Assembly: GCA_021324265.1 (NCBI GenBank)
Contig: JAJPJK010000006.1
Span: 62,001-126,000, forward strand
DNA length: 64,000 nucleotides
From: Thermoproteota archaeon
GTDB taxonomy: Archaea; Thermoproteota; Thermoprotei; Gearchaeales; Gearchaeaceae
Direction of reading: 5' to 3'
The notes under the pieces were generated by a model. The model did not search any database, was not told the origin of the DNA, and saw only the letters and a list, made by a program, of their open reading frames with translations. Positions within the stretch are counted from its first letter, which is position 1. Each line of letters opens with the position of its first letter. A program made the position numbers and the translations under genes. Shown here piece after piece: positions 45,286 to 50,502 of this stretch.

Positions 45286-45420
45286 TTAAGGCGGTAATAA
45301 AACAACATTCTTGCATATAATGCACCTATAAACAGCCCATACTCCTTCCATACCTACTTTTTCCTTTTCAGTAACTTTATGGCAATATGGGCAAAATGAT
45401 TTTACCTTCTCATTTGCCAT
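45286..45420 (-). CDS. 44-residue zinc-ribbon protein
   Basis: A short frame from ATG (45420) to TAA (45286-45288). The product has two CxxC pairs, CPYC near residue 10 and CIIC near 33, spaced as in a zinc ribbon. It overlaps the last 11 bp of the upstream regulator gene, so translation is probably coupled. The pairing with a COG2522-type regulator suggests a shared regulatory or RNA-polymerase-related role, which is inference. Size and clean cysteine spacing make it a real gene rather than chance. Confidence 0.7.
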   Translation of the reverse strand: MANEKVKSFCPYCHKVTEKEKVGMEGVWAVYRCIICKNVVLLPP

Positions 45421-45859
45421 GCTTCCTAATAATATTTACTATATTATCTTCGCCCAATAACGAATATCTCTCAAAGCATATATTGCATTCATTAACTCTT
45501 AAATCCTTTTCATAAACTTGATGTATGGAACAGAGAGCCTTTGTTTTAGTCATATAATCTACAATTTTGACAATTCCAATAACTAACTGATCTCTGTCTA
45601 TCTTACCCCTTACGAAACTATCAGCAAGCTCATTTACCTTTACTTCAAGCTCATTACTTACGTAAAACTGTTTAATAACGGCTCTTTTATCTGAAAGATA
45701 ATAACTCACAGCAGCTTGCGTTATTCCCAAGATATCTGCAACCTCTTTTTGGTTGTAATTATACTTCTCAATTAGCCTCTTGGCAATCATCGCTCTAATC
45801 ATAGGATAAACTGCCCTTGATATGATCTCATCAGGCATTAAGCGAGGTACAGTCACCAT
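45410..45859 (-). CDS. COG2522-type transcriptional regulator (HTH plus Cys-rich tail)
   Basis: 149 residues. A helix-turn-helix occupies about residues 22-60: YNYNQKEVADILGITQAAVSYYL followed by SDKRA. The central EVKVNELADSFV is an archaeal COG2522 feature. Near the C-terminus CSIHQ and CNICFERYSLL give three to four cysteines that could bind metal, as in related regulators with a zinc- or Fe-S-binding tail. The protein is expected to bind DNA. The target is unknown, but the neighbouring zinc ribbon and membrane protein share its direction. Confidence 0.82.
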   Translation of the reverse strand: MVTVPRLMPDEIISRAVYPMIRAMIAKRLIEKYNYNQKEVADILGITQAAVSYYLSDKRAVIKQFYVSNELEVKVNELADSFVRGKIDRDQLVIGIVKIVDYMTKTKALCSIHQVYEKDLRVNECNICFERYSLLGEDNIVNIIRKHGK

Positions 45860-45946: not shown

Positions 45947-46825
45947 ATGGCATACACCTTAAATTTATATTTGAAGGCAGCTTTCTTAATGGCCTTGCTA
46001 GGCGCCATACTAGTAGGAATAGGTTATTTGATAGGTGGACTGATGATAGCCTTCATTTTCTTAATAATGGCTTTTATAGTGAACTTAATTTTCTACTTCT
46101 TTTCTGATTCAATGGTACTATACAGTACTGGTGCGAGGATAGTAAGTGAGGCTGAGGCTCCAAGGCTTCATAGGATAGTAGAAAGAGTCGCAGCGAAAGC
46201 TGGTATAAAAAAGCCCAAGGTTGCAATAGTCAATTCACCACAACCAAATGCCTTCGCTACTGGGAGAGGGCCTGGTCATGCCGTGGTAGCTGCTACTACA
46301 GGGCTATTAACTTTGATGAATGATGATGAGCTTGAGGCAGTGTTCGGTCATGAGTTGGGCCATGTAGTTAACAGGGATGTATTGGTTGCTACAATTGCAG
46401 CTGCAATGGCCAGTGCAATAACATGGTTAGCATATGTTGTTTTTTGGATAGTCCTAGCTAGAGGTAGGAACGGAGGAGAGATAGCTCTTGCATTCGCTAC
46501 GTATTTGCTAGCTCCTTTAACAGCTTCTCTAATACAACTTGCAATTTCAAGATCCCGCGAGTATCTTGCAGATTATACTGGTGCAAAGCTGACAGGAAAG
46601 CCTCAAAGCCTTATAAGTGCACTTACCAAAATCGAAAATTACATAATGTCAGGAGTTAAGCTCGATGCCCCTCAAACTACAGCCTCGCTATGGATTGCTA
46701 ATCCTTTTAGAAAGGGGATAACTTCAGATGATGTGCTAGAATGGTTCTCTACACATCCTTCTACAAAGAAAAGAATTGAACGTCTAAAGCAGGTTGCAAA
46801 GGAAATGGGAATCTACATAATGTGA
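45947..46825 (+). CDS. htpX: HtpX-type membrane metalloprotease
   Basis: 292 residues. Two membrane helices lie at residues 12-50, and the zinc site HELGH at 135-139 in VFGHELGHVVNRDV; the third ligand Glu is in SREYLADYTGA. Two further helices follow near 150-190. HtpX degrades damaged or unfolded membrane proteins with its active site facing the cytosol. The stop overlaps the GTG start of the ubiquitin-like gene by 4 bp (GTGA), so both are made together. Confidence 0.94.
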   Translation: MAYTLNLYLKAAFLMALLGAILVGIGYLIGGLMIAFIFLIMAFIVNLIFYFFSDSMVLYSTGARIVSEAEAPRLHRIVERVAAKAGIKKPKVAIVNSPQPNAFATGRGPGHAVVAATTGLLTLMNDDELEAVFGHELGHVVNRDVLVATIAAAMASAITWLAYVVFWIVLARGRNGGEIALAFATYLLAPLTASLIQLAISRSREYLADYTGAKLTGKPQSLISALTKIENYIMSGVKLDAPQTTASLWIANPFRKGITSDDVLEWFSTHPSTKKRIERLKQVAKEMGIYIM

Positions 46826-47127
46826 GGTTAAGAATAAACGAAACTTTTATTTTTCAGGATAAAGTTTCTTACCTCGGTTTCGGTAAGAAGATAACCGATG
46901 TTGAAGTAACCCCTAACGATAACGTATTAGAGCTGAAGAAAAGAATCCTAAGAAGGTATAAGCTTGACGATCATCCAGAGCTCTTTTCTATAATCTATAA
47001 GGGTAATGAACTTCTTGACGATAGGAAAATATCTGACCTTGGACTTAAGGGTAATGAAGTTCTTCATATTATCTGCAAAGAAACCTCAAAGCTCAACGAA
47101 GTATTGAGAAGTAAAGGCATACTTTAG
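46822..47127 (+). CDS. Ubiquitin-like beta-grasp protein coupled to HtpX
   Basis: 101 residues starting at GTG 46822, which overlaps the htpX stop. The sequence follows ubiquitin closely: ITDVEVTPNDNVLELKKRI resembles ITLEVEPSDTIENVKAKI, and YKGNELLDDRKISDLGLKGN resembles [20 protein letters not shown], ending in VLHIICKE for the last strand. There is an N-terminal extension with FIFQDKVSYLGFGK, and the tail (KLNEVLRSKGIL) has no di-glycine, so conjugation by a normal E1 is unlikely. It could be an adaptor that feeds or regulates HtpX. Function is inference. Confidence 0.82.
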   Translation: MRLRINETFIFQDKVSYLGFGKKITDVEVTPNDNVLELKKRILRRYKLDDHPELFSIIYKGNELLDDRKISDLGLKGNEVLHIICKETSKLNEVLRSKGIL

Positions 47128-47177
47128 CTTTTTTCGTTTTTTCTAAATGATACTGCAACTTACTAATCAGTAATGGT

Positions 47178-48203
47178 TTAGCTCGCCTTTATTATAGTTT
47201 TAATAGCATCGCCTCTTCTAGTTATTTCTAGAGCATCCACTGATTGTTCAAGTCTAAATCTATGTGTTATCATATGTTCTGGGGCGATTATACCCTTTTC
47301 CAATAATGATATAGCCTGATATATTTCGTATTCAGTTGTTGAATACGTGGGAATTATCTTAATTTCATTTATGAAAATATAACTCAAATCCAATGGGATC
47401 TCAGCCCCTTTTTTAGGACTTCCAAATAAACATAATTTACCTCCTTTTCTTAGTGTCTTTATAGCCTGTTTCGTCGCTTCAGTACTTGAAGTAGCGACGA
47501 TTGCAATATCAACTCCTCTATCATTTGACCATGCTTTTATAGTATTTGAGATATCTCTTCTAGTTGGATTAATTGTTAAAGCTGCTCCGATCTTCTCTGC
47601 TTTGTCTAATCTTAAATCATTAATATCTATAGCGGCAACATCGGTGCCATAAATCCTAGTCAATAGCATTAATAATAGCAAGCCAGCTGGCCCCGATCCA
47701 TAGATTGCAATCTTATCACCAATCTGCGGTGAAATCTTATTTACAGCCCTAATACAACAAGCTAGTGGTTCTATAAATGTAGCCCGCTCTGTATCGATAT
47801 TGTTGCTTAGCTTGAATACTCCCTTCCTTTCTATTATTTGTGAGGGGACTCTAAAGTATTCAGAAAGACCGCATGGATCCAGATTCACTTTTGAAAACTG
47901 GTCGCAAAGCGTAAAATCTCCTCTTAAACAGTAATAACAAACTCTACAAGGGACATGATGATGCACAAATACCCTACTACCTTTTTCCAAACCCTCAACT
48001 TTCTGGCCTATTTCTTCAATCACTCCTACTACTTCGTGACCTAAAACTGGTGGGGTTATAAAATCTCCCTCATATTTTTCGAGGTCTGTACCGCATATGC
48101 CGCATGCAAGTAATCTCACTAGTATTTCGTTATCAGCGATCTTTGGCCTTTCGAGTTCTACAATCCTAACATCCCTTTTTCCAAATAAAAGAGCCGCTTT
48201 CAT
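47178..48203 (-). CDS. Zinc-dependent alcohol dehydrogenase (MDR family)
   Basis: 341 residues. The catalytic zinc site is CGICGTDLEKY and GHEVVG. The structural zinc has the four-Cys pattern CRVCYYCLRGDFTLC. The Rossmann motif is YGSGPAGLLLL. It resembles threonine dehydrogenase- and sorbitol-dehydrogenase-like archaeal MDRs, but the substrate is not clear. It overlaps the macro gene by 4 bp and closes the minus-strand run SCO1, membrane protein, macro domain, ADH. Confidence 0.9.
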   Translation of the reverse strand: MKAALLFGKRDVRIVELERPKIADNEILVRLLACGICGTDLEKYEGDFITPPVLGHEVVGVIEEIGQKVEGLEKGSRVFVHHHVPCRVCYYCLRGDFTLCDQFSKVNLDPCGLSEYFRVPSQIIERKGVFKLSNNIDTERATFIEPLACCIRAVNKISPQIGDKIAIYGSGPAGLLLLMLLTRIYGTDVAAIDINDLRLDKAEKIGAALTINPTRRDISNTIKAWSNDRGVDIAIVATSSTEATKQAIKTLRKGGKLCLFGSPKKGAEIPLDLSYIFINEIKIIPTYSTTEYEIYQAISLLEKGIIAPEHMITHRFRLEQSVDALEITRRGDAIKTIIKAS

Positions 48204-48730
48204 GAGAAAATTTTGTTAGCGACATTGATAAAATCCTCATAAGCTTCTTCATCTCTTAATACAATGCAAATCGTTTGAATAGTAGCCCCCGCATCTAATT
48301 CCTCCTTTATTGCCCTAAGCATTGCAGATGCTGCATCAATGTAGGAAACTCCACCAACGCCAGTGCCCATTGCAGGGAATGCTATACTTCTAATCCCTCT
48401 TTTTTTGGATTCTTGGAGCGCAGCTTTTGTGGAAAGATATACTTTCTCCTTGTTTGTTAGCATTGCAGGCCTTTCCATTGTAGGCGAATGCACTACATAT
48501 TTAGCTTTGAGTCTTCCAGCATTGGTTATTATGGCTTTTCCAACTTCTACAGGTGCTTTGCTCATTGCTTCTTGCTCTATTTCCTTTCCTCCCTTGTTCT
48601 TTATTGCACCCGCTACACCACCACCCATTATCATAAGAGAATTCGCTGGGTTTACTATCGCTTCTGTATCTTCATTAAGAAGATCTCCGATTTTTATTTC
48701 TATTTTTGTCCCTTTGTAATGGGCTTCCAT
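48200..48730 (-). CDS. Macro-domain protein (ADP-ribose binding/hydrolase)
   Basis: 176 residues, a stand-alone macro domain. The first loop is VNPANSLMIMGGGVAGAI, with the Asn and Gly-rich phosphate loop. The second is SIAFPAMGTGVGGVSYIDAA. These residues bind ADP-ribose and, in MacroD-like and AF1521-like proteins, remove ADP-ribose from proteins or deacetylate O-acetyl-ADP-ribose. Its start lies 31 bp inside the end of the upstream membrane protein gene. It is coupled to the ADH gene, although no mechanistic link is clear. Confidence 0.92.
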   Translation of the reverse strand: MEAHYKGTKIEIKIGDLLNEDTEAIVNPANSLMIMGGGVAGAIKNKGGKEIEQEAMSKAPVEVGKAIITNAGRLKAKYVVHSPTMERPAMLTNKEKVYLSTKAALQESKKRGIRSIAFPAMGTGVGGVSYIDAASAMLRAIKEELDAGATIQTICIVLRDEEAYEDFINVANKIFS

Positions 48731-49332
48731 GAAATATTGAGGTTCTTTTGCTTATTTATCCTTCTAAGTTGGATGAAAAGCAGTACGAGATTAATTACTA
48801 TCCCTGTTATGAATATGGCATTACTAACGCTTGTAAAGAGCGCTGAGAAACTTACAGTGTAACCAGTCACTGCAACTATAACTGCTTGGGCCATGACAAA
48901 GGCCGTCGCAGTTCCGCATGAGGGGCATGCAGATATGGCAGACGTTATGAGAGATAATCCTGCAATACCAGTGAATGTTCCGCAGGCAGCGCCGCTCTTA
49001 CTAATTTTTGCATAGTTTGTAAGAGCGAAGTTGAAAGCGCCTGTAAAAGCCAAAATTAAGAGCAAGATGAAAGTAGTAGCATCAATTATTACCAACCATT
49101 CAAAGCCCGACACGCCTGCAATGGAATATTGAGAGCCTATCCATAAAATCACGAAATCATCGTAGTTTGGCAGAAATTTTGTTGAGCTTGGTGCATATAG
49201 CAGGCCGAAGCTTGAAGGAGGATTGCCGCTAATCAGCCATTGAATTAAAATCAAAGATAAAATGTAAGAAAGTACTATGGCAATGAATGTGAATATGAAC
49301 AACTTACTTCTAAGTAATCTTGCATATCTCAT
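48700..49332 (-). CDS. Integral membrane protein with a CPSCG motif
   Basis: 210 residues with four to five hydrophobic segments. The third carries SACPSCGTATAFVMAQ, a CxxC inside or beside the membrane. N-terminal helices are at 13-34 and 75-100, and the last near 160-185. It starts in a 4-bp overlap with the SCO1 gene (ATGA), so the two probably work together. The CxxC could transfer electrons or copper to or from SCO1. I do not recognise the family by name. Confidence 0.75.
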   Translation of the reverse strand: MRYARLLRSKLFIFTFIAIVLSYILSLILIQWLISGNPPSSFGLLYAPSSTKFLPNYDDFVILWIGSQYSIAGVSGFEWLVIIDATTFILLLILAFTGAFNFALTNYAKISKSGAACGTFTGIAGLSLITSAISACPSCGTATAFVMAQAVIVAVTGYTVSFSALFTSVSNAIFITGIVINLVLLFIQLRRINKQKNLNISWKPITKGQK

Positions 49333-49952
49333 TGCCTAATTAATATTAGCATATCGTTCAATAAATCGTTAGGCGTCCATTGGCTTGCGATAATTGTAGG
49401 ATTACCGAAAGATACAACTCTTCTAAGCTCTTTGTCTATTAAGAATACTATCGCAGTATGTGTAACAGTATAGTTTGTACCGTTTCCATCTTTTTCAACT
49501 AATATTCCATATGCATACCAAACACTTTTTAGTGTGGATTCAGGCCCAACTAGGTAATGGATGTTGCTCGGGGCTCCAAGACTTTCGAGATATGCCTTTG
49601 CTTGGTACTTATCTCTCTCGGGGTCTACGGATATCAATAACATCACATATTGGTTAGAATAACCTTCACTGTTCAACGTTTTTGCAACCGTCACAAAATT
49701 TCTAATTATTACTGGGCAGACATTCGGACAATTTACATATACGAATGACATTGCTATGACTTTCCCGTAGAATTGATTAAGTTCGATAGATTGGTTGTTC
49801 TGGTCATACAATACAAAGTCGGATGTATTTAATGGAGGATTGAAAACATACCCCTTGAATTTAGGCTGTTGATTAAATGCTTGCAAAACCAGCACCGATG
49901 CAACGATCGCAATTACCACTATACCGATCAAAATGTAATAGATTCTTTTCAT
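49329..49952 (-). CDS. SCO1/SenC-type copper or thiol-disulfide protein
   Basis: 207 residues from the ATG at 49952. The longer frame to 49976 adds eight residues ahead of the helix, but a TATA-like box (complement of about 49976-49984) sits 27 bp before 49952 and favours the shorter form. A signal anchor covers residues 3-25. The SCO core has FVYVNCPNVCPV (CxxxC) and the later TVTHTAIVFLID with the copper His. SCO1 inserts CuA in heme-copper oxidases or acts as a thiol oxidoreductase. This suggests the host can respire oxygen or nitrogen oxides, an inference. Confidence 0.88.
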   Translation of the reverse strand: MKRIYYILIGIVVIAIVASVLVLQAFNQQPKFKGYVFNPPLNTSDFVLYDQNNQSIELNQFYGKVIAMSFVYVNCPNVCPVIIRNFVTVAKTLNSEGYSNQYVMLLISVDPERDKYQAKAYLESLGAPSNIHYLVGPESTLKSVWYAYGILVEKDGNGTNYTVTHTAIVFLIDKELRRVVSFGNPTIIASQWTPNDLLNDMLILIRQ

Positions 49953-50013
49953 TGAGGGAAAAGTGCATCGTCGCATATATAAATCTAAATATTTAAAATT
50001 ATATAAATATATA

Positions 50014-50502
50014 TTATACCAAATTATATAAATACGGTAACAATAGATCCTTAATTCTCTGCTTTTGGTCTTTACTTAGATATTTAAAACCTTTTATAAA
50101 TTTAATACAATTTTTTGAATTGCATGAACAAACAAATGCATCAACTCCCATATCATATTCGCTTGTATTGTAGTTATAACATAGTTCTTCATCTTTTCTT
50201 ATATCTCTTAGTGCAATTAAGAATAGCTGTTTATTTGATAATAAGAGTTTGCAATTTGGTTCGCAGGAATGATTTATGAACTTTCCTTCTCCTGAAGGTA
50301 GTAAGTAAAGCGAAAAATCTAGTTGTAAGGCATAAGGGCTATGTATATTGGTCAAATCTGCTTTTATTAGATCTCCATGAAAAACTAGGATTATTTCATC
50401 CTTTTTTATATCCTTATTCGCGAAGACGCCTTTGCCATTGCAAAGGTTTGAATTTGAGATATAAACAGTCCCTCTCTCCGAGAGGGGTTTTAGCCTTTGC
50501 AT
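50014..50502 (-). CDS. SET-domain protein lysine methyltransferase with post-SET motif
   Basis: 162 residues. The SET core is GKGVFANKDIKKDEIIL, then GKFINHSCEPNC (NHSC at 77-80) and RDIRKDEELCYNYN (106-112), forming the pseudoknot where SAM binds. A post-SET-like CxCxxxxC motif follows at Cys125, Cys127 and Cys132, which with Cys80 could hold zinc as in eukaryotic SET enzymes. It is likely to methylate lysines in chromatin or other proteins. SET domains are rare in thermophilic Thermoproteota, so transfer or an old retained gene should be considered. It stands alone with its own promoter. Confidence 0.9.
   Translation of the reverse strand: MQRLKPLSERGTVYISNSNLCNGKGVFANKDIKKDEIILVFHGDLIKADLTNIHSPYALQLDFSLYLLPSGEGKFINHSCEPNCKLLLSNKQLFLIALRDIRKDEELCYNYNTSEYDMGVDAFVCSCNSKNCIKFIKGFKYLSKDQKQRIKDLLLPYLYNLV

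Follow-up and report, generated by a model that had tools for sequence, protein, structure and literature searches.

The htpX gene of the window (the whole stretch of 64,000 nucleotides analysed, from a Thermoproteota archaeon) runs directly into a gene for a small ubiquitin-fold protein without Gly-Gly, here called UbL, and the occurrence of this pair within a single small family of archaea from hot environments suggests, from its genomic context, a lineage-specific helper or regulator of HtpX. Our leading reading, drawn from the genomic context and given about an even chance, is that UbL is translated together with HtpX and would serve it in the cytosol as a non-covalent adaptor or regulator. 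The idea of the first-pass annotation, an adaptor or inhibitor of the protease, is thereby retained as a hypothesis from gene order, narrowed to a single archaeal family. That UbL, itself closest to E1 ubiquitin-fold domains, is a dedicated non-covalent subunit of HtpX, the two forming a protease-UbL module that works without ubiquitin conjugation, is to us possible rather than probable. Compared with the first-pass annotation of this DNA, the present analysis adds the affinity of UbL to the ubiquitin-fold domains of E1 enzymes and the variation in the small gene that follows htpX.

The htpX gene (45947..46825, + strand) encodes an M48 membrane metalloprotease of 292 aa with the HExxH motif HELGH (PF01435, 147.8 bits); against the NCBIfam HtpX models its best score is 281.5 bits, which is below the equivalog cut-offs. 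UbL (46822..47127, +; 101 aa) starts with GTG within the htpX stop, as had been proposed, and the GTGA of 46822..46825 (+) is common to both genes, leaving no gap for a separate promoter. In the sister genus the overlap is TGATG, or TTGA. A T-rich stretch on the same strand just 3' of the UbL stop (47128..47146, +) is a possible archaeal transcription end of the htpX-UbL unit, as read from the sequence; a pattern scan found no hairpin terminator there, the scan being of the bacterial promoter and terminator type and thus uninformative for an archaeon. The C-termini of HtpX proteins look alike with and without a UbL gene behind, which counts against UbL as a partner of HtpX. A second, distant HtpX paralog with 32% identity is encoded elsewhere in the window's genome (G000:C10:94664-95368, - strand).

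An ortholog of UbL was found in Thermoprotei archaeon isolate CPBay_Spr30G08_23 (L002 1498-1803 / L048 2427-2732), which represents a different genus of the same family. The two UbL proteins are 39% identical over their full length, compared to 65% for the two HtpX proteins, and they begin at the same residue (MRLRINETFIF and MKIKVDETFIF). Differences per codon position (0.48/0.31/0.65) resemble those of the neighbouring HTH gene and indicate a real gene under protein-level selection. The gene order HTH(-), htpX(+), UbL(+), dehydrogenase(-), macrodomain(-), SET(-) is common to both genera, with the macrodomain and SET-domain genes thus near htpX-UbL in each. In the window the HTH regulator-like gene is divergent (45410..45859, -; PF01381, 25.6 bits; 40% identical to the L048 neighbour), the zinc alcohol dehydrogenase family gene is convergent with UbL (47178..48203, -; PF08240/PF00107; synteny kept, 60%) and the macrodomain gene overlaps the dehydrogenase gene by 4 nt (48200..48730, -; PF01661, 108.3 bits; synteny kept, 58%). 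In the window, two additional genes, for SCO1/SenC and a membrane protein, are inserted between the macrodomain and SET genes, and the segment with all of these spans 48200-50502 (-).

Because some of the flanking genes are just as syntenic, gene order alone does not single out the link between UbL and HtpX. The two could be chance neighbours in a compact genome, with a coupling that goes back to the ancestor of the family and no functional link, as the pair occurs in only two genomes and the HTH, dehydrogenase and macrodomain genes are syntenic too, and as related htpX genes manage without UbL. We consider this rather improbable, because the stop-start overlap, although it differs in length, has been kept while 61% of the UbL amino acids changed. 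The overlapping order retained in two genera that have diverged this far in both proteins counts for a link to HtpX.

The adjacency extends beyond the window's genome to a second genus but is confined to one family: the coupling was seen in only two genomes, belonging to two genera. A profile of the two orthologs, searched against 398 genomes from the phylum, gave no further ortholog. The third family member, with a genome that is 67% complete, gave no UbL match and also lacks the corresponding htpX; the order's other family and the remaining genomes of the class and of the phylum sample gave none either. None of about 28 related htpX genes (50-59% identity), from about 28 other genomes, has UbL behind it. 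A wide occurrence of the pair was rejected after searches of the class, the phylum, the genome contigs and viral contigs.

Which small gene occupies the slot behind htpX varies between lineages. In family f18, a small DUF2116 gene often comes shortly after htpX (-4 to +34 nt) and sometimes overlaps it by the identical 4 nt (L104-L107, L109-L114, L116, L117, L119-L122). Like UbL, the DUF2116 product is small and encoded right behind a related htpX; it is a treble clef with a transmembrane segment and is unrelated to UbL in sequence. Its position makes small accessory partners at that slot plausible. In another family (L098, L099), an unrelated ORF of 379 aa with an N-terminal hydrophobic stretch lies at +1 nt after htpX; the first 70 residues of its product gave no match in Pfam.

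The first-pass annotation had described UbL as a ubiquitin fold of the eukaryotic type rather than a ThiS/MoaD or SAMP protein, and this is borne out by profile and structure comparisons. Residues 21-87 match Pfam PF00240 (E 2.5e-11, 43.6 bits, cut-off 25.4), while the ThiS/MoaD family PF02597 gave no match in the Pfam search even at E<=10. In single-sequence phmmer against the PDB, UbL matched NEDD8/RUB1 (1.9e-5 to 1e-4), the Rad23 UbL domain (1.7e-4) and ubiquitin (4e-4); the larger figures for polyubiquitin sum repeats, single-domain chains being at ~1e-4 to 1e-5. The sister UbL alone has no Pfam ubiquitin match. The loops YKGNELLDD and ISDLGLKGN, earlier regarded as diagnostic, are present in the window's UbL but are not conserved in its only ortholog. 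As claimed, Gly-Gly is absent, and this holds throughout both orthologs. By eye, I58, H82 and I84 of UbL align to I44, H68 and V70 of ubiquitin, and S89-K90 to its Gly-Gly. UbL is a single domain in which no hydrophobic segment was seen.

An AF2 model of UbL, built on the two-sequence alignment with the ortholog (pLDDT 79, pTM 0.67), has the beta-grasp order: beta 2-6, loop 7-23, beta 24-28, helix 35-44, beta 55-59, a short helix 70-73, beta 80-85 and a last helix 88-97. Foldseek placed ubiquitins as its top matches (TM <=0.92, normalised to target), with the Caldiarchaeum ubiquitin 6fnn among the matches. The sister UbL folded from its single sequence gave a poor model (pLDDT 56), which was left out of structural conclusions. 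The modelled UbL has the topology of ubiquitin, but its beta1-beta2 loop is long and a C-terminal helix takes the position of the Gly-Gly tail. The similarity to ubiquitin begins at about residue 21, and the unusually long loop (codons 7-23, 46840..46890, +) carries the conserved ETFIF at codons 7-11, with low model confidence at 12-20. The predicted helix that replaces the tail (codons 88-97, 47083..47112, +) is conserved as xxxLxExLRxxG. Residues conserved between the orthologs thus cover the fold core and both family-specific additions, the loop and the C-terminal helix.

Among the ubiquitin folds, the sequence of UbL appears nearest to the non-conjugated ubiquitin-fold domains of E1, by a clear but modest lead. 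After the orthologs, nearly all matches of the two-ortholog profile in the 398 phylum genomes were the C-terminal ubiquitin-fold domain of E1 enzymes of roughly 390-400 aa in Ub-E2-E1 operons. The window's UbL scored 40.9 bits with an HMM of this domain, 31.7 with one of four eukaryotic UbLs (typed from general knowledge, not fetched), 22.8 with N-terminal UbLs of another E1 type, 15.2 with archaeal ubiquitin and 0.4 with ThiS-like Ubls. For the sister UbL the scores in the same order were 15.8, 5.1, 10.6, -1.1 and 0.5, and with the first E1 model shuffled copies scored no more than 7.2 and 5.2. The E1-domain HMM is a broad detector, giving 32.7 for yeast Rad23 and 28.5 for human ubiquitin, which keeps the lead modest. 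In a tree of ubiquitin folds the UbL pair is on its own long branch, with E1 domains as the nearest rows by path; the tree carries too little signal to fix the origin. Thus the likeness to ubiquitin noted earlier holds for the fold and profile, although the sequence is closer to the E1 domain than to ubiquitin itself.

The archaeal E1 C-terminal domain (e.g., L132 550-1737, residues 319-377) is, like UbL, a ubiquitin fold without Gly-Gly, and the two have the motif V-P---VL-LKK-I-------DPEL-----L-DD-K--DL-(V/L)K in common. Unlike this domain, UbL is a free-standing ORF of 101 aa coupled to htpX, with the long beta1-beta2 loop, an extra C-terminal helix and no E1 body. The best HMM match in both orthologs could mean that UbL is a detached E1 domain still serving an activation cascade in trans. 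This is highly improbable, as no E2 was found for it to bind, the E1 of the window's genome has no Pfam ubiquitin domain and the tree does not put UbL inside the E1 domain group.

In eukaryotic E1, the ubiquitin-fold domains are established as non-covalent binding modules. That the best relatives of UbL are such binding domains was counted for a non-covalent binding role. As an adaptor or regulator of HtpX, UbL would be co-translated with its partner, in fixed proportion to it, and would remain in the cytosol on the side of the catalytic domain; the proteolytic domain of HtpX has been described as cytoplasm-facing (PMC9263693). Its binding surfaces would probably be the hydrophobic patch I58/I84, the ETFIF loop and the C-terminal helix, and as a protein-binding module it could deliver substrates or tune the protease. 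Alternatively, UbL may be a stress protein transcribed together with htpX but acting elsewhere, perhaps binding non-covalently, in the manner of Rad23, to the proteasome or an AAA ATPase. We regard this as unlikely, though not negligible: Rad23-type UbLs, domains without Gly-Gly, are among its matches, it carries the I58/I84 patch, and archaeal operons often combine unrelated genes of one response. However, Rad23 has UBA domains and UbL has neither these nor any other second domain, and the htpX overlap is tight in both genera.

If UbL controls HtpX, ubiquitin folds have been recruited to archaeal membrane proteolysis without conjugation chemistry, and the pair would offer a simple setting for the fold acting purely as a binding module. 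UbL would also be a first candidate partner of HtpX in archaea, where little is known about the substrates and regulation of this protease. We found no report in the literature of HtpX paired with a ubiquitin-like protein.

The pair is distinct from conjugation operons, as the first-pass annotation had suggested, with no E1, E2 or JAMM gene at the locus. The window's genome has one ordinary Gly-Gly Ubl beside an E1 on a separate contig (C3:26478-27405). No E2 was found in this genome or that of the ortholog in a search with working positive controls (E2 was detected in three other Ub-carrying genomes, with a weaker match in a fourth); an E2 search limited to the order, in which no positive control was detected, was uninformative. 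There was no JAMM match in these two genomes (G000 and G001), whereas the sister family does have one. Membership of the locus in a conjugation operon was therefore rejected, given the lack of E2 and JAMM in the genome and at the locus.

Of the known systems, the Caldiarchaeum-type ubiquitin (CsUb) is from the same phylum and has the same fold (hhalign probability 70%), but proteins of this type have a C-terminal Gly-Gly and are encoded beside E2, E1 and Rpn11, and UbL has neither feature. NEDD8, also a sequence match, is conjugated through Gly-Gly. SAMP, Urm1, ThiS and MoaD share the beta-grasp fold, and the member of this group in the window's genome is a gene separate from UbL; membership of UbL was rejected on the lack of a PF02597 match and of Gly-Gly and on the 0.4 bits against ThiS-like Ubls. 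UbL could still be a degenerate or processed modifier (ubiquitin, SAMP or Urm1) that is attached after C-terminal trimming, given its fold, the E1 in the genome and the known C-terminal processing of archaeal ubiquitin precursors (PMC6043591). This we find very unlikely, since UbL has no Gly-Gly and a helix in its position, the E1 adjoins its own Gly-Gly Ubl, and neither genome has an E2 or JAMM match.

Other arrangements of ubiquitin-like domains were seen in the searches. Two other genomes of the class encode an N-terminal ubiquitin-like domain fused to an E2 domain, at L004 850-1725 (-; PF00240 31.0 bits, PF00179 51.4 bits) and L005 1423-2136 (+; PF00240 27.3 bits, PF00179 28.6 bits); the ORF after the latter is JAMM-like by eye, with no Pfam match. 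In several archaeal families (L140, L146, L150, L155), E1-like proteins carry an N-terminal ubiquitin-like domain without Gly-Gly before the ThiF-like part.
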